From contig NC_133123.1 of the NCBI RefSeq assembly GCF_033568475.1, forward strand, positions 2,790,001 to 2,854,000: a stretch of 64,000 nucleotides of DNA. Reading direction: 5' to 3'. Below are positions 20,293-34,239 of this stretch, piece by piece. Made by a program: the position numbers and the translations under genes. The notes beneath the pieces were generated by a model. That model worked only from the letters and a program-made list of their open reading frames with translations. It made no database searches and was not told the DNA's origin. Positions within the stretch are counted from its first letter, which is position 1. Each line of letters starts with the position of its first letter. The DNA comes from Henckelia pumila. Lineage: Eukaryota; Streptophyta; Magnoliopsida; Lamiales; Gesneriaceae.

Positions 20293-22238
20293 CTTGCTTC
20301 ATTTTGTATATATATATATGTTGTTTCATCAACCAAATGATTCGGATCAGGATGTAATATTTCATGTCGATTACCATATTTTAATGAATTTTCAGGTCAT
20401 TGACCATGTAAGAACTTAACATAGCAAATGCCGTACTGCCAAATGTAACTCTCGAAAGCAGCATCATGTTTTTTTTTTTGTGCAAAAGTTATAATCTTAT
20501 TAATGTACTTCGACCCCGAACTTGTGATAATGACTGGTTTTGGTAGTTATTTTCTTAATTCCCAACGGACAAATTCTTGGATAAGTTATCACTGAAAGTG
20601 GCTAAGCAAGCCCTTGAAACATGCATTTATAGAACTACTGTTATATATTGTGTAACTTAACCAACAACAAATACAATTTCCTAATAAATTAAAACCAATA
20701 CATCCTTCTACTTTTACATATTCATATGTTTGATATTTCATTTTTTATTCTAATTGCCAAGATTGTGCTTACCAAATATGTTAAAGCTAATTACAAGAGG
20801 ATCATGCAATTACGTTTCAAATTTTCACAATGATTTTTCTAATCAAGGAACCTTGAAAAAATGGCATTATAATATTAAGGTAGTGGTTATAAGACTATAT
20901 AACGTGTTTCCACATCAAATTAATTTGATGTTCCCGGCATACACTCTCTCTCTCAAGCCTATCACCTAGCTTTCACAATCAAACAAAGAGTGCCATTATA
21001 TATATGTATCACGTGATAATAGAATTTTTGTATCAAGAGGTCAACATACACAGGGCCAATCACATATCCCAGACCCAAAAAAAAAATCTATCAAAGGTGG
21101 CTAAGTATAAGTTTTGTGGACGCGCGGTCTCAGATATTCGGGGTAATGAATATGGATTTTATATTAAAATTAATTAACTGAAAAAATTGCACCCATCGCT
21201 AGCGACTAGTGAACTCGATTTCACTAGAAATATGTCAGCTTCTCTCTGGGTTAATTTCTTGGTTTGATCTTGGCTCACTGCAAGAATGGAACAAGTAGAA
21301 AATGTGAAATGGGTGTCACAAGCAAGCATTCTCCCAAGCGTAAGAAAACACCGAACATCGATCTTTAATCATTGAATAAGGTAAATATATCCACCGCACG
21401 ACATGGATCATTTAGACCAATCACGTACATGAAAACACAAGCAGTGTTATGTTTAACGCTATTAATTCCCCATAGACTTGAGATGATCACTTGATCACAT
21501 TTCAAATTTCAATTAGAAATTTCCTTTTTTCGATCGATTTTGTTGCACTTCTTCAGTTGGATCGGAAAAGATTGCCCCTGGTAAATGGAGGACGAGTGAA
21601 GTCATTTTCAGTGCAGCGGCACAATCATTACATATATCAATGAATGGAGCAGCTAGCACCAACAAATGGGATTCCGATCGATAATTGTCCTTTGAAGTGA
21701 GGGAGGGTCAAGTTTCCACTTGGAACACACTGGTGGATATAGGAATATTCACCAGAAGTTTATGATACAAATTTCTCCTAGCTAGTTTGACCTTTCCGAT
21801 TTCTTGTTAAACTAAAATGATATACACTAGATGCACTGATAGGTTGACAATAACAAATAATAGCAGAAATTCTCGTCACCGAGTTCTAAACTTAACGACT
21901 CGAAAATTTTTCAATTGTTGCTTCAGTAGATGCCAAATCAAGCTAGATTAAGGTTGTGTTTTGGACAGCTTCTAGAAAATTTTGTTAAGTAAATCACTAC
22001 CTAAGACCAATATAACATTAATGATCCAGAGAAAATAATATGATCCAAAAAGATGGAGACAATTGATGTATAAGAGTCTGGCCCATGCTTCAGAAAGCTA
22101 ATAATGTAACGACTGTTGTTCATGATTCAATTCGACTACCTAGTTGCATGGTGACCGAAAGGTCAATAATCATAAAGCCTATATATATGAAACACAAATA
22201 ATAAGATTCTTTAACAAATTTCTTGCTTTCCTTTCGGC
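20293..22238. other. Intergenic, no supported gene
   Basis: This AT-rich stretch holds the 3' UTR of the CCT gene. Short frames (for example 20754-20969) have no coding character. A T-run lies near 20470. Confidence 0.5.
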
Positions 22239-22347
22239 CGGGAAAAATAATGTGCGTGTTGCTGTTTGTCTTGCTCGATGGTCAAATCATCATTTAGAAG
22301 TGCCAACAAATTATACCACCAAAGACAGAGTAGTACTCATGCTATAA
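22239..22347 (+). pseudogene. Diverged exon-2 remnant of the array micro-gene
   Basis: This stretch encodes NVRVAVCLARWSNHHLEVP and the rest of exon 2 of the micro-gene found at 33487, 44628, 47392 and 50202, ending at TAA 22345-22347. Exon 1 and the promoter are not recognisable upstream. The downstream unit sequence resumes after the Sirevirus at 32462, showing that the retroelement split this copy. Confidence 0.6.
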
Positions 22348-22360
22348 AATCATTTAAGCG

Positions 22361-23198
22361 TGAAAGGAATTTTATTTCTTGAATATTTCGGCCTTAATTA
22401 ATTGGAAATTATAAGATTTTGCTTTCTAGACAAGTTAGGATATTTGATAAATATTGTGTGTATATTTTCGAATATGTTAATGATATATTTGCCAAAATTT
22501 AAATTAGATCTTGATAAGGTGATTATTTGACATAATATAATCGATATTATCAAGATATGATTTACAATATTTGATAGAGTTTTTTTTCCTACTAAAACTT
22601 TGTTACCTATTCTTGTAGGACTCTATCTGAGGAAATCTTCAAAGCTTGGATGATTATCTATAAAAGAAGATTTCCACGCACAAGAAAAAAATGAGAGCTT
22701 CAGACGAAAAATACTCTGCGCATACTCTGAAGAATTCAAGGAAGATCTTGAAGAATTCTGAAGCAAGGTTTGCAACCATCGTTGTTGCATGTCTCCGTGT
22801 CGCCGTTCGTGTTGAAGACATCAGAGACAACACTGTGGGAACTGTGTTGTTGAAAATATTTTTTGTCTCTTCAATTTAGGCTACGGGAGTTGCATCCAAT
22901 TTCTTTTATACTCTTATTGTATTTTAGGATGCAAGTTTGATTTCTCAACTCGTTGAGAAATTTAGGATTTAATGACTTTTCGTAAAATCACTAGGATTAC
23001 TTTGTAAGACTATTCTTACGTTTACTAGTGATATTTAGCCCTAAGGCACCCGCACGAGTTTTATACTCGTGCAAAATTATTTACTTGTGTTTTTATTTAC
23101 GCTTTAAATTTTCGCTGCACTATGTTGTCTGTGGTGTTACGACACAAACGACAACACTGCCTTATTTTACATAACAACCACGTACACCGTTTATTTCA
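22361..23198 (+). repeat. 5' LTR of the Sirevirus
   Basis: It starts TGAAAGGAATTTTATTTC and ends TTATTTCA, 838 bp. A TATA box (CTATAAAAG) at 22658-22666 marks the promoter. One dyad motif lies near the 3' end (23122-23157), and a related cluster of GTGTTG/CAACAC half sites at 22809-22854. A 62-codon frame in the LTR is not considered coding. Confidence 0.92.
22658..22666 (+). promoter_or_regulatory. TATA box in the Sirevirus 5' LTR
   Basis: CTATAAAAG is followed by a purine-rich stretch; transcription probably starts about 30 bases downstream, defining the U3/R border. The same sequence occurs in the 3' LTR near 31921. Confidence 0.65.
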
Positions 23199-23200
23199 CA

Positions 23201-23212
23201 TGGCATCAGAGC
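23201..23212 (+). other. Primer binding site of the Sirevirus
   Basis: TGGCATCAGAGC begins two bases after the LTR and matches the initiator-Met tRNA type PBS (usual form TGGTATCAGAGC) with one change. Confidence 0.8.
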
Positions 23213-23262
23213 CGCCACTTGACTTTACTAAGTGTGTTCCTGGTTTGTGTTACAGGTTAGTT

Positions 23263-25082
23263 ATGGACACTCCGTACACAAGTGCAATTCGTCCACCTAT
23301 TTTGGATGGAATGAATTACGGCCCTTGGAAATTTAAGATGAGCATGTATATTCAATCCATTGAGTCCAAGGCTTGGCAATGTGTTCTTGATGGCTGGACA
23401 CCACCTATGAGAGATGATGATGTTCCAGGACCAAAGCCAAGATCACAATGGACAGTCGAAGAGAATATTGCGGCTATTTATAATGCTAAAGCTCTTAATG
23501 CTATATTCACTTCAGTTGATATGAACATGTTTAATTTAATTGGTACTTGTATTTGTGCTAGGGATGCTTGGGAGAAACTACAAACTCACTGTGAAGGCTC
23601 GGCAAGTGTCAAGAAGACAAGGATGCATCTCATAACTTCAAATTTTGAAAAATTGAGAATGGAGGAATCAGAGACCATCATGGAATATAATGAAAGATTG
23701 AAGAGTCTTGCAAATGAAGCATCTATTCTTGGCGATCCTATTTTGAACGAAAGACTTGTATCCAAAGTACTTCGTTCGCTTCCCAAAAGATTTCACACCA
23801 AGGTTTGTGTTATAGATGAATCCAAAGATACATCTATAATGGGTTTGGATGAGTTAATTAGTTCTCTTCGCACCTATGAGATGGAGTTGGAAGCCGAAGA
23901 TGACTCGAAAGGTAAGTCTATTGCTTTTCAAGTATCTAATAATGTTTACAATGATTTTGCTGAAGTTCAACAGGAAGTAAAGGATTCTGATCATGAGGAA
24001 AATTCTATTGTCTTGATCTCGAAGAAATTTACTGATTATCTCAAGGTAATGAAAGAAAAGAAAGATGTGAAAAGTGCACAATCCTCAAATTTTCCTAGAC
24101 TGCCTACTTCAGAGAAGCCTCAAAAACCTGCTGCTACTCGAGGACCTCGTCAAAGATATGATAGTAAGGTTCAGTCCTCAAGCAAAAATTTTGATAATGT
24201 TCAATGTAGGGAATGTAAGGGATATGGCCACTATGCTTATGAATGCGCAAATCGCCTTCGGAAAGGTATGAATGTTTCTCTGAGTGATGATGATTCTGAA
24301 TAAGAACATGAAAAGTTTGAACATGCTGATCTAATATCTTTTACTGCTTTACTGGAGAGTAAGAAAAATTTTCAGATCAATCCTCTTGGTGTTGGCTCCG
24401 GTGTTGCCACACCTAGACGCAACACTGTTCAAAAATCTGTTTGTTTTGTTGCTTCTAACCTTGATAATTTCAGTAATCATGAAGAACAGGTAGATGATCC
24501 TTATACTCTGGAAGGTATTCGTAAACTCTATGAAGAGTTGTACTGTGATTGGAACAAGAGGAATCAGTTGAACACAACTCTTACAAAAGAGAATACTGAA
24601 TTGAAAGCTGCTATGGCTAGATTGGAAATTCTCTTGAGTAAGAAAGATCTCGAATTAGGGTTGCTGAATTCTGAACTTGAAAGAGCAAAAACAACACTTG
24701 ATAAATTTAATTCCAGTTCGAGCAAACTTGATTTCATTTTGACTATGGGTAAGAATGATAAGTTTGGACTTGGTTTTAAATAAAGTGTTTTTGAAACTGG
24801 TGAATCTTCCAAAACACCAGTATTTGTGAAGGAAGGTAATGATTTCTTGAACCATCCTTTAACTGCCTTGAAAGGTAAGAAACCCATTGTTGAGAAAAAT
24901 ATTTCTGTCCCAAAGCCGAAACAATGAAAACGTCCTTTTGTGTGTCATTATTGTCTCAAACCTGGCCATATCAGGCCTTTTTGTCGAAAGTTGAAGAATG
25001 ACTATGTTTTGTGGGAATCTAAGCAAGTGTTGTCCCCCGTGTTGCACAACACTAAGAGCAACACTGGCAAAAAGAACCCACT
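23263..25082 (+). pseudogene. Sirevirus gag, interrupted
   Basis: The start is the ATG at 23263 (MDTPYTSAIRPPILDG), the usual Sirevirus Gag beginning; an upstream in-frame ATG at 23200 overlaps the PBS and is unlikely. The UBN2-type capsid region contains NYGPWKFKM and VLRSLPKRFHTK. A first zinc knuckle (CRECKGYGHYAYEC) is at about 24208-24249. Stops follow at TAA 24301-24303, TAA 24781-24783 and TGA 24925-24927. In the same frame a second knuckle (CHYCLKPGHIRPFC) appears at about 24940-24981, so they interrupt one long Gag. The region between has a coiled-coil look. Near 25080 the frame must shift to enter protease. Confidence 0.82.
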
Positions 25083-28000
25083 GTGAAGAAAGTTTGGGTT
25101 CAAAAGCCTGATGTCAGATGTTTTGTTATTTATACTTCTTTGAAAGCTAATACTGCAGGTAATTGGTATTTTGATAGTGGAAGTTCACGACACATGACAG
25201 GTTTGAAAGATCACCTCACTGACTACATTGAACAGAATGGTGGTAGAGTGACCTATGGAGGAGGTGCAAAAGGAAGGATTGTTGGCAAAGGAACACTCAA
25301 TGTGGAAGGGTTTCCAAATCTTCACAACGTCTTACATGTTGAAGGACTTAATGCAAATTTAATTTCAATTAGTCAACTGTGTGATAATGATTTGCATGTG
25401 AAGTTTGATAAAAATACTTGTGAAGTTTTTGATAATGCTAATCGTTGTGTTATCACAGGTACACGATCAGTGGATAACTGCTACCAACTAGGTGAAGAAT
25501 TAGCATGTAGACACTCAAAGATTGATGAGTTTAGTCTATGGTACCAAAAACTTGGACATGTGAATTTCAAGACCCTAAAGAATCTGAGTAAGTTTGAAGC
25601 TGTCAGAGGTCTTCCAAATCTAAAGACTGGTGTTCCATATGTTTGTGGTGCATGCCAAAAAGGTAAGCAAACCCGTGTTGCACATCCCGTGTTACAACAC
25701 TGTGGGACAACACGGTGTCTTGAACTTTTACACATGGATTTGATGGGTCCTATGGAAGTCGAAAGTTATGGAGGTAAAAAGTATTCTTTGGTATGTGTTG
25801 ATGATTTTTCACGTTTTACATGGGTAAGGTTTCTTAGAGAAAAATCAGATACTTTTGATGTGTTTAAGAAGTTGTTTACCAAGATTACTAACCTACATAC
25901 TTTGACTGTAGCAAGAATCAAAACTGATCATGGAAAGGAATTTGAGAATTCATCTTTTTCTTCTTTGTGTGATAAGAAGGGCATCTCACAGGAGTTCTCA
26001 GCCCCAAAAACTCCTCAACAGAATGAAATTGCTGAAAGAAAGAATAGGACGTTGCAGGAAATGGCTAGAGTGATGATGAGCTCAAAAAATATCTCCAAAG
26101 GATTTTGGGCAGAAGCATTGAACACAGCGTGCCATATTTCCAATCGGGTTTATTTGAGAAGTGGTTCTTCAATGACTTCCTATGATATTCTCATGGAAAA
26201 GAGACCAAATCTTAACTATTTTCATATATTTGGCTGTGTGTGTTATGTTTTGAATGATAGAAATCACCTAGCAAAATTTGATTCCAAGAGTGATAAGTGT
26301 TTGTTCCTTGGTTATTCTACTAATAATCGTGCATATAGGATGTATAACCTTAGGACCAGAACAATGATGGAATCCATTAATGTTGTTTTTGATGATGGTG
26401 CAGATCTCAAAGGAAAAACTGCTGAAGATGATGTTGAAGTCTTGCTGGAAATTCCTCCCGAAGAACACAGTGTTGTCCCAGATGTTACAACACCAAACAC
26501 AACACTGGTTCCTTCAGAAATTCATGAGAAAAATTCCCAAAATAATGAGGAAGCTGAAATGATTACTGAAAAGAACCTTCCAAGCAAGATACAGAAGAAT
26601 CATCCTTTATCACAGATTATTGGAGATGTGCATGGAACAAGGCAAACTCGAGGTAAGGACAAAGTTGACTACCGCAAGATGGTCGGTTTAGTATGCATGA
26701 GTTTCGTGTACTCTCAGGTAATGCATTCCTGTTTTGTCTCCAATATTGAACCCAAGAATGTCAATGATGCTTTGAATGATAAATTTTGGGTAAATGTCAT
26801 GCATGAAGAACTTGAGCAATTTGTCCGAAATGATGTTTGGTTTTTGGTTCCACCACCTGATCATGGTAATGTTATTGGTACAAAATGGATTTTCAAAAAT
26901 AAAATTGATGAATCAGGAAACATCATTAGGAACAAAGTAAGGTTGGTTGCTCAAGGGTATACGCAGGTTGAGGGGGTTGATTTTGATGAGACCTTCGCTC
27001 CTGTTGCCCGCATTGAGTCAGTCCGACTATTTCTAGCTATTGCATGTCATATGGGTATAAAACTTTATCAAATGGATGTGAAGAGTGCATTTTTTAATGG
27101 TATTTTGAATGAGGAAGTGTATGTGAAGCAACCCAAAGGCTTTGAGGATCCACATAACTTGGATCATGTTTACAAGTTGAAGAAAGCACTCTATGGTTTG
27201 AAGCAAGCTCCACGAGCATGGTATGGTAGGTTGACCGAGTATTTACTCGAAATTGGCTTCAAACGAGGTGAAGTTGACAAAACCCTTTTTATTCAAAAGG
27301 CCAAAAGTGAAATTCTTATTTTTCAAGTATATGTGGATGACATTATCTTTGGTGCGTCTTCTCAAAAGCATGTTGATAATTTTGTTGAATGCATGTCTTC
27401 TACTTTCGAGATGAGCATGGTAGGAGAGTTAACTTTTTTCCTTGAATTGCAAGTTAAGCAAACAAATGAATGAATTTTTCTTTGTCAAAGTAAGTATGCA
27501 AAGAACTTGGTGAAAAAGTTTTGCAAAGAGAATGTTAAGAACATGAAAACTCCTATGGGCTCGAGTGAAAAATTAGGAAAAGACAGTGTTGCGGCTGGTG
27601 TTGACAACACCATGAATCGCAGCATGATAGGGAGTCTTTTGTATTTGACTGCTAGTCGTCCTGATATCATGTTCAGTGTGTGTTTATGTACTAGATACCA
27701 ATCTGATCCAAATGTAACCCATTTAAAAGTTGTCATGAGAATTTTGAAATATGTTTCGGGTACATTGGACTTGGGATTATGGTATACAAGGGAAACCAAC
27801 ACTAACCTTGTAGGTTTTAGTGATGCTGATTGGGCTGGTGATGTGAATGATAGAAAGAGCACTACGGGTGGGTGTTTTTACATTGGCAATAATTTGGTCT
27901 CATGGTATAGTCGTAAGAAAAATTGTGTGTCACTTTCGACTGCTGAATCTGAATATGTGGCAGCCGAAAGTTGTTGTTCACAACTTCTTTGGATGAACCA

Positions 28001-28478
28001 AATGATTGAAGACTATGGTTTTAAGAGTGAACCCCCCATTGTTTATTGTGATAATTCGAGTGCTATTGATATATCAAAAAATCCAGTTCAACACTTACGC
28101 ACAAAACACATTGACATTCGTCATCACTTTATTCGAGATTTGGTAGAAAAAAGTATGATTCAAATGGAGTTTGTTGGAACCAATAACCAATTGGCAGACA
28201 TCTTTACTAAAGCATTAGATCATGAGAGATTTTCAACTCTTCGAAGTCTCTCAGCATGTGTGCATTATAATCCCTTGCATGTGTTGTCTTCGGTGTTACA
28301 ACACTACCGACAACACTATTGTTTTTCTTGTCATGCATTTTTAAGGTTTTTAGACATTCTGCACTCATTCTGTTTTGTGTGGTGTTTAAATCTTTGTTTC
28401 GTTGATTCAATCAATGCCAAGTTTTTCTGCAAACTGTTATTGAAACACACTGGCCCTTGCAAAATAGACTCTGACTAA
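25083..28478 (+). pseudogene. Sirevirus pol: protease, integrase, RT, RNase H
   Basis: Domains in order: protease ([13 protein letters not shown]); integrase zinc region (LGHVN ... CGACQKGK) and catalytic core with Asp in HMDLMGP, Asp in KTDHGKEF and Glu in IAERKNR; a variable linker holding a dyad motif at 26470; RT ([34 protein letters not shown]); RNase H (FSDADWAGD, STAESEYVA, YCDNSSAI). One TGA at 27471-27473 splits RT from RNase H in the same frame, and frame continuity with Gag is lost near 25080. The final 60 or so codons have no pol similarity and carry another dyad motif. Confidence 0.88.
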
Positions 28479-29305
28479 ACCACTAAGTAGTTGAGGGATG
28501 TATGTGTATTCCATGTTCTTGTTCCATGTGAAAGGTGGTTTCGCAAATTCAGTGTCATAATCTTTTATGAAGTTTGTTGACCAATGTCATAAATACGAAC
28601 TTTATCCAAATTGGAAGAAAATGGAAAAAGCTACTTAATTGAGTCCAATGAAGACTGTTCGATTAGTGTGAAAGCTACCACTTCTGAAATTTTTTTTATC
28701 AAGGGTAATCAAGTGTGTATGTCTCAAATGCTTTTTGAAAAACTATGGTGTTGGAGTTGATGTTGGCAACACGAGAGGCAACACTACACTCGTCAACATA
28801 TTGTTTTGCTTGTGATTGCATTTTTATTTTATGTTACACTCTGTTTAGGCATAAAATAGGTCATGCATATGCATTTTTGCTCATAAGGTTCTGTTTTTGG
28901 GTAAGGTTCTACATAGACGAATTTTTTATGATTTACCCTATTTACTAAAAAATTGAATTTTCGTGATTGATTTTTGGTTCAGTGGAGTTAGGCTGATGTG
29001 GAGGTAATTCTGGAATATTTGGATTGAAATATTTATCTCAGATTATTGCCATAATTATGGGATTTTATCTCTTTAATCTTGGTTTTTAATTTTCGTCCGT
29101 TAGGAAAGTTACCGTTGTAACTGGAGAGAGATCAGGGATCAGGGTAATTATGGGTTTGTTAGGATTTTGTTACCATTTGAGATAAGGATTCTATAAATAT
29201 TTTTTTTGATAATAATCGGGCTTTATCATCTTCTCGAAATCCTTTGTTCCCGATTGAGTTGTTTTTGCAAACCCTAACCTTCTCTCACCCTCAAATTGCT
29301 TTTCA
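28479..29305 (+). other. Spacer between pol and the accessory ORF
   Basis: Non-coding AT-rich sequence inside the Sirevirus. It carries one dyad motif at 28748-28784 in sequence that is not part of any long frame. Confidence 0.6.
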
Positions 29306-31302
29306 ATGGCAGGCTTTGATCCACAAGACATCCGAAGTGAGATGGGTCATAAAGAACCCGATGTTGCTGCTGGTGTTACAACACCGGAAATCCCATCCAC
29401 GGTGTTCTCTCTGCCGATTGTTCCAGTTTCCATGGAACCTGTCCCTCTCGCTGTTCTCATGCCTGGAGAACCAGGGAACGCAATTGATATAGAGAATCTT
29501 CCTGATTTCTCTGTTTTGAATAAGGTTAATCCTCCTCCACCGATGGCACGCCGATCTAAAAGGCAGGCAGGTTACAACCCTGACTTTACTCAGTCCAAGA
29601 GTTTTTACAAGGTCCCCGCATATCCATGGCTGAAGAAGATCGCAGCTCGGGCGAAGATTCTGATGATGCCAATTTTGAATTTGTGGCGAGGAAGAAACCC
29701 TCTAGTTCTACTGCTGCCTCTGCCTTCGCTCCGATAGTTGAATCCGTTTCTGATAGCGAGGATTCAAACTCTTCTGATCATGTCCCTTCTAAGGACATTC
29801 CAGCAGCTACTGCTCCTCAAGAAAGTGCTGATTCTGATGAAGATGCCACCTTAGCTCAAATCCTAGAGAGCCTCAAGCAAGGAAAGGGGTTCTCTTCTGT
29901 TCCTCCCTCTGCTCATCTCTCCGATGATGAGCCTGATGCTGAGATGATGGAGGATTTTGCACAAGGCAAAGCTCAACAAGATTCTGTCTCTTCCTCCTCT
30001 TCCTCCTCTGCCAATTCGGTTGCTGACTCTTCTGATAAGAGTACTGATATTGGAGGAGAAGAAGAAGTCTAAGGATGTTTCCAGCATGGATGCTGATGAA
30101 GACCCTCTAGACCAAGAGGATGTTTCTGCTGCTGCTGATGTCAGTGTTGTTGTTGGTGTCGTCAACACCACGAACAACACTGTTGATGAGGACTATGACA
30201 TGGATGCTGCTCATTCCGTCATGTTTTACTCTGGTGATGCTGCTGCAACTTGGCCTCTTCTTGCTCACAGAGGTCTACTGGATGAGAGGAACATTGATGT
30301 TCGCTCCTACGATAGGTACAATCTCATTGACTTTTTGAAGCTTCGACAGCTATATTCTACTGTTGTTGCTGTAATACCCTACTGTAAGAGGGTGATTCTG
30401 GAGTTCTACGCCAACTTGACTGCAAGCATTGAAGATCTAGAATCTGCAAAGTATGAATTGGTGTACCTTAGGGGTAGGCTGTTCGAGTTCACCCCACCTG
30501 TTATCAACTCTTTTTATTCCACCCCAGACGTTGATGAAGGCAATCCTCCAGAAATCAACGAAGTGATTTCTGTTCTCACTGGTGGTATGGTCAAAAAATT
30601 CTCTGACCATTTTTCTGCAGCTAAGCTCACCTCCTTTTATTCTGTGCTGCATAAGATAGCTGTTAGGAATTTGACTCCTTCTTCCAATTCAACAGTTATC
30701 ACCAGACCGCAGGCGGTCCTTTTATATGCCATTGGGACCGGGAGTCCTTTAATTTTGGGAAGATGATATTCAAGACTGTGCTCCAATTTGCTGATGGAGG
30801 ACTCAAATCTACAAAGCTCCCTTTTCCCTCTTTGACCTATGGCATATTGGAATCTCGGGCTTTCATCCGCAATATTACAGAAGATCTCACTGATCAACCT
30901 GAGGTTTTAAAGTTAGCACCTGGTCTTCTAAAGGGAAATCGTGTTCTGGATTTACCCTGGACTGCCACTCCTACTCCTGCTGCTGACATTGCTGGTGTTG
31001 CCCCCGATGTTGCCAACACGGGAGACAACACTGAAGAAACAGTGCCTACTCCTACCTCCCTGGAATTCACCACTGCCACCATTCAGCTGCTGATGACTCG
31101 TGCCGAGGAAAAGATTTCTCAAGCTCAGGAAGACATTGCCTTCTATAGCACGGTCTTGGCTGATTGTCGGCGACAACTTGGCATTTCTGGCCAAACAGGG
31201 GGAGATAGTGCACAAGATGAAGATGAAGCTGGTCCATCTGGGACTAAGGATGATGAGAATGAAGCCTCTGATCAAGATAACTCTGATAGTGATCAAATTT
31301 AG
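29306..31302 (+). pseudogene. Sirevirus accessory ORF after pol (putative plant transposon protein-like)
   Basis: A single long coding region is split over two frames by shifts near 29628, 30058 and 30745. It starts at the ATG 29306 (MAGFDPQDIRSEMG). An acidic Ser-rich part (29626-30060) follows, then a folded domain at about 30200-30890 containing DFLKLRQLYSTV, VILEFYANL, VYLRGRLFEFTPPVINSFY, and FNFG/IFKTVLQFAD after the last shift. These match the pattern I know as the 'putative plant transposon protein' domain (PF20167) of accessory ORFs; this family call is from memory. The C-terminus is acidic (DEAGPSGTKDDENEASDQD). Sireviruses may carry an env-like gene here, but I see no signal peptide or membrane anchor. 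Confidence 0.7.
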
Positions 31303-31511
31303 ATTTTGCTTCTTCTCTCATCTTTTCTTTAGTTGCTTCATTCTGATTTTAATATAACTGATTTTGTTCGTTCTAGTTACGTGCCTTAATTGCTCATATA
31401 TGTTAACGAGACTAACATCTTCTACCCCACTTATGCTCTGTTATATGAATTAAAGAATCTCATGTGTTATTGTCTATGTTATCCACCGTGTTACGACACG
31501 AGGGACAACAC

Positions 31512-31622
31512 TTCAGGGGGAGACTTAAAATTCAGGGGGAGAAGAATTTTTGAACTCCGGGGGAGTTTATGATTATCTCACACTTGTGCAATGTGTTGTC
31601 CAAAAAGCAAAAAGGGGGAGAT
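31512..31622 (+). other. Multiple polypurine tracts of the Sirevirus
   Basis: CAGGGGGAGA occurs at about 31515 and 31533, CGGGGGAG near 31559, and AAAAAGGGGGAGATTG directly before the 3' LTR (31607-31622). The last is the plus-strand primer used at the LTR edge. Repeated upstream copies are a known Sirevirus trait. Confidence 0.8.
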
Positions 31623-32461
31623 TGAAAGGAATTTTATTCCTTGAATATTTCGGCCCTAATTAATTGGAAATTATAAGATTTTGCTTTCTAGACAAGTTAG
31701 GATATTTGGTAAATATTGTGTGTATATTTTCGAATATGTTAATGATATATTTGCCATAATTTAAATTAGATCTTGATAAGGTGATTATTTGACATAATAT
31801 AATTCGATATTATCAAGATATGATTTACAATATTTGATAGAGTTTTTTTTCCTACTAAAACTTTGTTACCTATTCTTGTAAGACTCTATCTAAGGAAATC
31901 TTCAAAGCTTGGATGATTATCTATAAAAGAAGATTTCCACGCACAAGAAAAAAATGAGAGCTTCAGACGAAAAATACTCTGCGCATACTCTGAAGAATTC
32001 AAGGAAGATCTTGAAGAATTCTGAAGCAAGGTTTGCAACCATCGTTGTTTCATGTCCCCGTGTCGCCGTTCGTGTTGAAGACATCAGAGACAATACTGTG
32101 GGAACTGTGTTGTTGAAAATATTTTTTGTCTCTTCAATTTAGGCTACGGGAGTTGCATCCAATTTCTTTTATACTCTTATTGCATTTTAGGATGCAAGTT
32201 TGATTTCTCAACTCGTTGAGAAATTTAGGATTTAATGACTTTTCGTAAAATCACTAGGATTACTTTGTAAGACTATTCTTACGTTTACTAGTGATATTTA
32301 GCCCTAAGGCACCCGCACGAGTTTTATACTCGTGCAAAATTATTTACTTGTGTTTTTATTTATGCTTTAAATTTTCGCTGCACTGTGTTGTATGTGGTGT
32401 TACGACACAAACGACAACACTGCCTTATTTTACATAACAACCACGTACACCATTTATTTCA
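31623..32461 (+). repeat. 3' LTR of the Sirevirus
   Basis: 839 bp, TGAAAGG...TTATTTCA, nearly identical to the 5' LTR. The terminal dyad motif is kept at 32385-32420, with the first arm GTGTTG where the 5' LTR has ATGTTG. Confidence 0.92.
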
Positions 32462-32698
32462 AAGCGGAAGCAACTACTTTCTAGAAAAAGAAAAAATTAC
32501 CTCAAAGTTTCATACCTTTCTCTTGGCCAATGATCACCCAAAATTTCCTTCGCGTCTCTACCATGAGTAATATTATCCTTGTATCACAGCTACTCGAGAC
32601 TTGGCTCATGCATGCCTATAATCAAGATAATGATACTTTTTTTAAAAAATATCATTTCACAAATTAATCATCATTTTGCATCACAACATACTAAGGTA

Positions 32699-32699
<1 letters not shown>

Positions 32700-32746
<47 letters not shown>
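32700..32746. repeat. (TA)n microsatellite in array unit
   Basis: About 23 TA repeats follow GGTAGTGTA. The orthologous tract in the other units is at 34010-34023 (short), 45148-45197, 47915-47954 and 50725-50744, so repeat number varies from unit to unit. Confidence 0.9.
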
Positions 32747-32749
<3 letters not shown>

Positions 32750-33486
32750 AGTGATCATAGATTTTTTTTCACAAATTTGCTAAGAAAAAATCAATAACAA
32801 CTAATTTTTAGAATTTGCAAACACTATCTAAAAATAAATCATTTTTGCAGTGCTTATGTACCATGACCGGACTTGAGGAAGATTCCAATTGCCATAAATG
32901 AAACAAATAGGAACTATGTTCAACAATAGAGAGGGACCGTGCAGTGGACAAATAATCATGCAGACACTCCATCTACAATTAAAATTTACAAATAATTCTA
33001 CTGATAATTAACCAACAATATATATATAGACCAAGAATTATAGAAATTTCCTCCTCCCTTGGACATAGTAATAATCCAGCCAAACCCCACTGCTCTCAAG
33101 TTTCTTGAAGGGAAGATTCCTTGGTTCCACACCATGGTTCCACATAGTCACACCAGATCTTTAATTGATTTTCTTCTTTGTTGATTCTTCACCTAGAAAA
33201 TTAATCCTCAGGTGACTAAGGATTTGTATGCAATAAAATGTGATAGTGACTTCTAATATTAGAAAAAAGGTAATTTTGTTGATTTAAATGTATCATTTTT
33301 TAATCAATTCATCTCATCACTCATGTTATAGATGACCAATAGTACCGCACGTAATTATCTATAATAACACTCTCATTTGAGTGTTAGTCATACTATAAAA
33401 CAGATACGGGCAAACATAATTTCAATAAACTTCATCGGCCTAAATAAAGCTCTACCTAGTGAATCATTTTTCGCAGTCAATTAAGA

Positions 33487-33754
33487 ATGGAGGTTTACTT
33501 TCCCGATCTTAATGTGGCCTTCGGTTTGGGAATTTTTGGTATATTTCATTATTCATACCCTGAATTTTTTTTTTTGTTAGCAAGTTGTTGGTTTCTAAAA
33601 ATATTTTATACTAACTTCACTTCGTTTTTTTGTCTATTTTTCAGCTGGGAAAAATGTTGTGCGTGTTACTGTTTGCCTTGCTCGATGGTCAAATCATCAT
33701 TTAGAAGTGCCAACAAATTATACTACCGAAGACAAAGTAGTACTCATGTTGTAA
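33487..33754 (+). CDS. Putative two-exon micro-gene, array copy 1
   Basis: Exons 33487-33538 and 33645-33754 (GTATAT...TTTTTCAG intron of 106 bases) would encode 53 residues: MEVYFPDLNVAFGLGIF, then AGKNVVRVTVCLARWSNHH, LEVPTNYTTEDKVVLML. I do not recognise the family. In its favour are conserved exon lengths (52 and 110 bases) and an open frame in three of the four copies with exon 1, plus a TATA-like sequence about 40 bases before the start (here CCTAAATAAAG; CTATATAAAG in the other copies). Against it are its small size, no visible signal peptide and the fact that all copies are recent duplicates. It may instead be a fragment of a larger gene. Confidence 0.4.
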
Positions 33755-34239
33755 AGCCATTTAAGCGGAAGCAACTACTTTCTAGAAAAGAAAAAATTAC
33801 CTCAAAGTCTCATACCTTTCTCTTGGCCAGAGATCACCCAAAATTTCCTTCGCGTCTCTACCATGAGTAATATTATCCTTGTATCACAGCTACTCGAGCT
33901 CGACTTGGCTCATGCATGCCTATAATCAAGATAATGATACTGTTTTTAAAAAAATATCATTTCACAACGTAATCATCATTTTGCATCACAACATACTAAG
34001 GTAGTGTATAAATATATATATATAAGTGATCATAGATTTTTTTTTCACAAATTTGCTAAGAAAAAATCAATAACAACTTATTTTTAGAATTTGCAAACAA
34101 TATCTAAAAATAAATCATTTCTGCAGTGCTTATGTACCATGGCCGGACTTGAGGAAGATTCCAATCGCCATAAATGAAACAAATAAGAACAATGTTCAAC
34201 AATATAGAGGGATCGTGCAGTGGACAAATAATCATGCAT

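Follow-up and report, generated by a model that had tools for sequence, protein, structure and literature searches.

The window analyzed here, a 64-kb stretch of the Henckelia pumila genome (Gesneriaceae, Lamiales; contig NC_133123.1, positions 2,790,001–2,854,000), contains one long terminal repeat (LTR) retrotransposon at 22361–32461, through which a dyad motif is dispersed at intervals of 0.3–1.3 kb. Its 5′ LTR (U3-R-U5) occupies 22361–23198, with a TATA-like box at 22658–22659, and is 98.2% identical to the 3′ LTR at 31623–32461; a 5-bp target duplication, AAGCG, lies at 22356–22360 and 32462–32466. The LTRs, genes and polypurine tracts are all on the forward strand. An open frame with gag (Retrotran_gag_2 and a zinc knuckle) is located at 23122–24303, and the pol open frame (25083–27473) carries Pol_BBD, gag_pre-integrs, rve, SH3_retrovirus and RVT_2. 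The C-terminal pol frame (27507–28478) has no Pfam match and is an RNase H-like region by alignment to relatives. An accessory gene at 29306–31302, with a PF20167 (Transposase_32) domain in 30041–30763, is broken in the window copy into four frames (29306–29737, 29626–30072, 29957–30766 and 30763–31302). About 115 bp 5′ of its ATG at 29306 there is a TATA-like box, CTATAAATA, at 29191–29199, a possible internal promoter that is present in 17 of the 30 fetched loci, window copy included.

The domain order is of the copia type (Retrotran_gag_2, gag_pre-integrs, rve, SH3, RVT_2), with the integrase before the reverse transcriptase as in Sireviruses (Ty1/copia). A run of identical polypurine tracts preceding the 3′ LTR, which PMC2829016 gives as a Sirevirus mark, is found here: AGGGGGAG is repeated at 31515, 31534 and 31613 (cluster 31515–31621), and a further copy lies at 31197. 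The accessory open reading frame (ORF) stands between pol and the 3′ LTR, where many Sireviruses, not all, have an envelope-like ORF; there is no support for regarding it as an envelope. The element was assigned to the Sireviruses from these three features, with its relatives listed by similarity only.

The dyad is built of half-sites with the consensus RYRACAYNR, up to four per dyad and mostly 12 bp apart within an arm, and the two arms are inverted around an inner gap of 1 to 4 bases. The ACA core letters are present at 58, 57 and 60 of the 60 half-site slots. A preliminary description of this DNA had listed 13 dyads, most of them with an arm spacing of six bases. The motif is present at all 13, and the spacing is 6/6 in most copies, with 6/7 at 24389 and 8/7 at 25675. 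Two dyads beyond those listed, at 22797 and 32060, lie in the LTRs and have a spacing of 6/8. A scan of the whole window for four half-sites with flexible spacing gives, at ≤3 mismatches, 13 distinct sites, namely 11 of the listed ones and these two, while 27586 and 29361 score four mismatches because only three of their four half-sites are present. Outside the element, no position of the window was found at ≤5 mismatches.

In the 5′ LTR, dyads lie at 22797–22833 (spacing 6/1/8; nearer to the motif in most fetched copies) and, near the LTR 3′ end, at 23122–23157; their 3′ LTR counterparts are at 32060–32096 and 32385–32420. Eight dyads, all located either upstream of 28281 or beyond 29306, belong to the reading frames of gag, pol or the accessory gene. 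The one in gag (24389–24425) follows the first zinc knuckle and encodes GVGSGVATPRRNT, with compatible residues in relatives. Further on, dyads occupy the linker before the protease region (25027–25064), the exact boundary of the pre-integrase domain and the integrase core (25675–25713, spacing 8/2/7), the linker from the integrase SH3-like domain to the reverse transcriptase (26470–26505) and, lacking the fourth half-site, the region downstream of the reverse transcriptase domain (27586–27610). A perfect dyad lies at the 3′ end of pol (28281–28316), and the spacer that separates pol from the accessory ORF holds one dyad (28748–28784). Within that ORF they are found in its N-terminal part (29361–29384, three half-sites, residues DVAAGVTTP), N-terminal to the PF20167 domain (30144–30180, SVVVGVVNTTNNT) and directly after a DLPW motif (30995–31031, GVAPDVANTGDNT), and the dyad at 31476–31511 is immediately upstream of the polypurine-tract cluster. 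The outer half-site at 25027–25035 and at 26470–26478 is GTGTTGTCC.

We compared the array with shuffled sequence. When the element was dinucleotide-shuffled 200 times, the mean number of positions at ≤3 mismatches was 0.01 (max 2), against 15 observed; two of these 15 represent real sites in a shifted register. When codons of the coding segments (one with an internal stop) were shuffled with the protein sequence preserved, the mean was 0.80 site clusters at ≤2 mismatches and none of 300 shuffles reached the seven observed. The spacing of the dyads is also over-regular (coefficient of variation 0.31, P 3.5e-5 for 13 sites; P 1.75e-4 with the two extra LTR sites added), to which tolerance of linkers may add.

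As a result of an own-genome DNA search with a pol piece, 40 copies were scored out of 3936 first-look candidates. These copies retain dyads at the same places. The preliminary description had named two outcomes that would refute its claim, a motif no more frequent than in codon-shuffled sequence and related copies that lack it at these positions, and on both counts the result was in its favor. Among copies of >85% identity (5/10, 27/29 and 9/10 rows for three stretches), mismatch to the window copy over 15 sites was 2.9% of cells in the core, 6.7% in the flanks and 9.5% in the spacers; P values of this comparison are overstated because the copies are related. The constraint varies among sites: at 23122, differences are more frequent in the core than in the flank, in part because the window copy itself deviates there. 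A conserved core with free spacers is the signature of a protein-binding site.

Relatives were compared at the protein level, by asking whether a protein could be encoded by the dyad with at most one forced mismatch; the Henckelia proteins are paralogous copies from the same H. pumila genome and not independent species. There are 73 dyad-compatible places in 31 Gesneriaceae proteins (22 pol, 9 accessory), 1 in 98 other pol proteins and 6 in 14 other PF20167 proteins, and those of the Primulina gag-pol match those of Henckelia. In Castilleja (Orobanchaceae), five of nine accessory proteins have a compatible place, several of them beside DLPW, the place of the dyad at 30995, which suggests that the array predates the separation of the Gesneriaceae and Orobanchaceae. 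In the nearest outside pol relative, P0001 (61% identical by search, 64% in the alignment), the dyad was not seen. For a second PF20167 accessory family of H. pumila (P0127 and P0133; 41–50% identity according to the search tables), no place compatible with the dyad was found, and its element could carry a different motif. A search of viral_contigs returned no DNA of relatives. An unrelated IMG/VR contig (L001:6016-6051) holds a single palindromic match to the motif.

PF20167 was matched in all 22 members of the accessory family. For two models of the accessory protein, the best match was VANC21 bound to its target DNA. Foldseek of the models against PDB and BFVD gave no significant match. In sequence, neither Pfam nor the PDB profile links the protein to VANC, the sole profile match being irrelevant (E 1.1); the VANC domains DUF1985 and DUF287 are absent among 25 of the 26 Pfam families listed, and the basic character of the accessory domain is not notable. 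According to PMC5735166 and PMC10398659, VANC proteins attach to short motifs within the transposon that encodes them and take away silencing marks, partly also outside the bound regions. The motif given for VANC6, AGTTGTCC (PMC5735166), and the outer half-sites of the dyads 25027 and 26470 have the last seven letters, GTTGTCC, in common, an overlap that may be due to chance. For sunflower elements of the SIRE lineage, which may or may not carry PF20167, PMC12844716 reports a strong drop of CG methylation in the central part.

We regard the dyads as almost certainly a selected array of nucleic-acid sites. The regular copies and the predicted VANC-like fold make the dyad probably a landing site of the element's own accessory protein, and we give a probability of about 0.5 to the reading that such binding would serve anti-silencing, a step that is argued by analogy and is more speculative than the binding. 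In this mechanism, the PF20167 protein, with a domain possibly folded like the DNA-binding part of VANC21, could be expressed on its own from the internal TATA-like box. Its targets in double-stranded DNA would be the RYRACAY half-sites, of which a dyad holds up to four. About 15 dyads, at intervals of roughly 0.77 kb, would thereby mark the whole integrated element, and the bound protein would counter host silencing by causing the element to lose DNA methylation, in the way that VANC acts on VANDAL transposons. A system of this kind, which would work like VANC, falls outside VANC membership by its element class, its Pfam domains and its motif layout.

That chance, codon bias, a protein-level repeat or the insertion of a small mobile palindrome produced the dyads is hardly credible. 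Several coding dyads do share a frame, in which they resemble repeated peptides of the form xVxxGVxxT; but other copies are in a different frame or in the non-coding LTRs and spacer, on which ground a protein-level repeat was rejected, and neither kind of shuffle reproduces the array. A mobile palindrome was rejected at 25675 and 27586, where the sites are length-neutral: the outgroups align there without gaps and with other residues, so the motif was written by substitution. The preliminary description had offered three roles for the motif, namely sites for an element protein of the VANC kind, sites for a host factor, and RNA hairpins bound by Gag. Dispersed hairpins of the genomic RNA, akin to multiple packaging signals, are an improbable answer, even though the dyad form itself and its folding energy speak for them. 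Indeed, 10 of 12 sites have a folding z ≤ −2 relative to dinucleotide shuffles, an energy that is low because they are dyads; every site is 3′ of the LTR TATA, so the dyads are probably in the transcript; and wobbles allow the left arm of 27586 to pair with CGCAGCAT. However, the tests of pairing were negative. Pairing between the left and right arms of a site does not exceed that of arms exchanged among sites (P 0.32, 0.11 and 0.18 by permutation; with 12 sites, the power is low). Across five sites in 29 copies, we found no compensatory two-sided core change against 62 one-sided ones, of which 44 disrupt pairing while 18 preserve it, and the change that keeps pairing is the rarer (12 right C>T, leaving G-U, versus 24 left G>A, giving an A-C mismatch). 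Moreover, the outer left half-site is kept without its outer right partner at 27586 and 29361, and the spacers are hypervariable. It is thus the half-site letters, rather than pairing, that are conserved in the copies, and recognition as double-stranded DNA very probably fits better than recognition as RNA.

With the half-site letters conserved and the VANC21-DNA complex the best match of two models, a site for the element's own protein is favored among the three roles. A host DNA-binding factor recruited by the element, for example an AP2/B3 protein of the RAV type, would be suggested by the dyad core CAACA, which we take to be the AP2 site of RAV1, but the consensus has no CACCTG partner, transcription does not require sites all through gag and pol, and the window outside the element has no site; we hold this to be unlikely. 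The dyads might instead bind the accessory protein for another step, such as compaction or import of complementary DNA, guidance of integration or activation of transcription. The same structural and sequence evidence serves this possibility as serves anti-silencing, and the internal TATA-like box in 17 of the 30 loci suggests a separately transcribed regulator; yet the closest structural match is an anti-silencing protein and the even coverage of the whole element exceeds what a promoter needs, and we consider it not very likely.

Our tentative picture, then, is of a Lamiales LTR retrotransposon lineage that may combine a VANC-fold, sequence-specific anti-silencer with gag-pol linkers, LTRs and an accessory gene rewritten as its regular target array. 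If this is true, sequence-specific self-recognition against silencing extends beyond VANDAL DNA transposons to the class that accounts for a large part of plant genomes, and selection can establish a binding site within coding sequence of the retroviral type. The additional or "envelope-like" PF20167 ORFs of Sireviruses, and possibly of Athila, would then be self-recognizing DNA-binding anti-silencers and not envelopes; the function of such ORFs in plant LTR retrotransposons is described as unknown in PMC7264820 and PMC11728184. The locus offers the protein together with its likely DNA target, resolved to single letters, and the hypervariable spacers serve as a natural control. In a literature search outside most subscription journals, we found no paper that connects an LTR retrotransposon with a VANC-like protein or with dispersed target motifs.

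Around the element, a 142-bp direct repeat (87%) is present at 22219–22360 and 33626–33767, and because it stands on both sides, the element may have inserted in another repeat. Repeated units are also seen outside the element (32462–34000), where stretches at 32462–32695 recur 1.3 kb further on, and one sequence recurs at 33381, 44522, 47286 and 50096.

Among known systems, Sireviruses themselves carry palindromic repeated motifs, the RM boxes (Bousios et al. 2010, PMC2829016). As in our element, many palindromic boxes occur in one Sirevirus, in the LTR and near the "envelope" gene; the published boxes, however, are grouped within the LTR on the upstream side of the TATA, and also 5′ of ENV, and their core is CGG-CCG in all but Tnd-1, forming CpG islands. 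Here the core is RYRACAY, the sites run through gag and pol, and those of the LTR are downstream of the TATA. The dyads have no CGG-CCG core, and the U3 of the 3′ LTR contains one CGG and no box cluster. Some RNA viruses carry dispersed packaging signals, likewise many degenerate copies of one recognition motif across coding RNA, but these are recognized as RNA hairpins, whereas half-site letters and not pairing are kept here. An ORF with PF20167 between pol and the 3′ LTR is also known from Athila (ORF1), among the additional ORFs that plant LTR retrotransposons carry, and a nuclear localization signal is predicted in the Athila protein; Athila is a Ty3-gypsy element, and no target motif or function was seen for it in PMC11728184. 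VANC/VANDAL of Arabidopsis differs in being a Mu-like DNA transposon with DUF1985/DUF287 and tandem non-coding repeats, whereas we have an LTR retrotransposon with a target duplication and polypurine tracts, PF20167, and dispersed, inverted four-part sites that lie in coding regions too and are known from sequence. Both systems nevertheless have a transposon-encoded accessory protein and short motifs repeated along the element (15 dyads here, as putative targets), and the predicted fold may be similar to that of DNA-bound VANC21.
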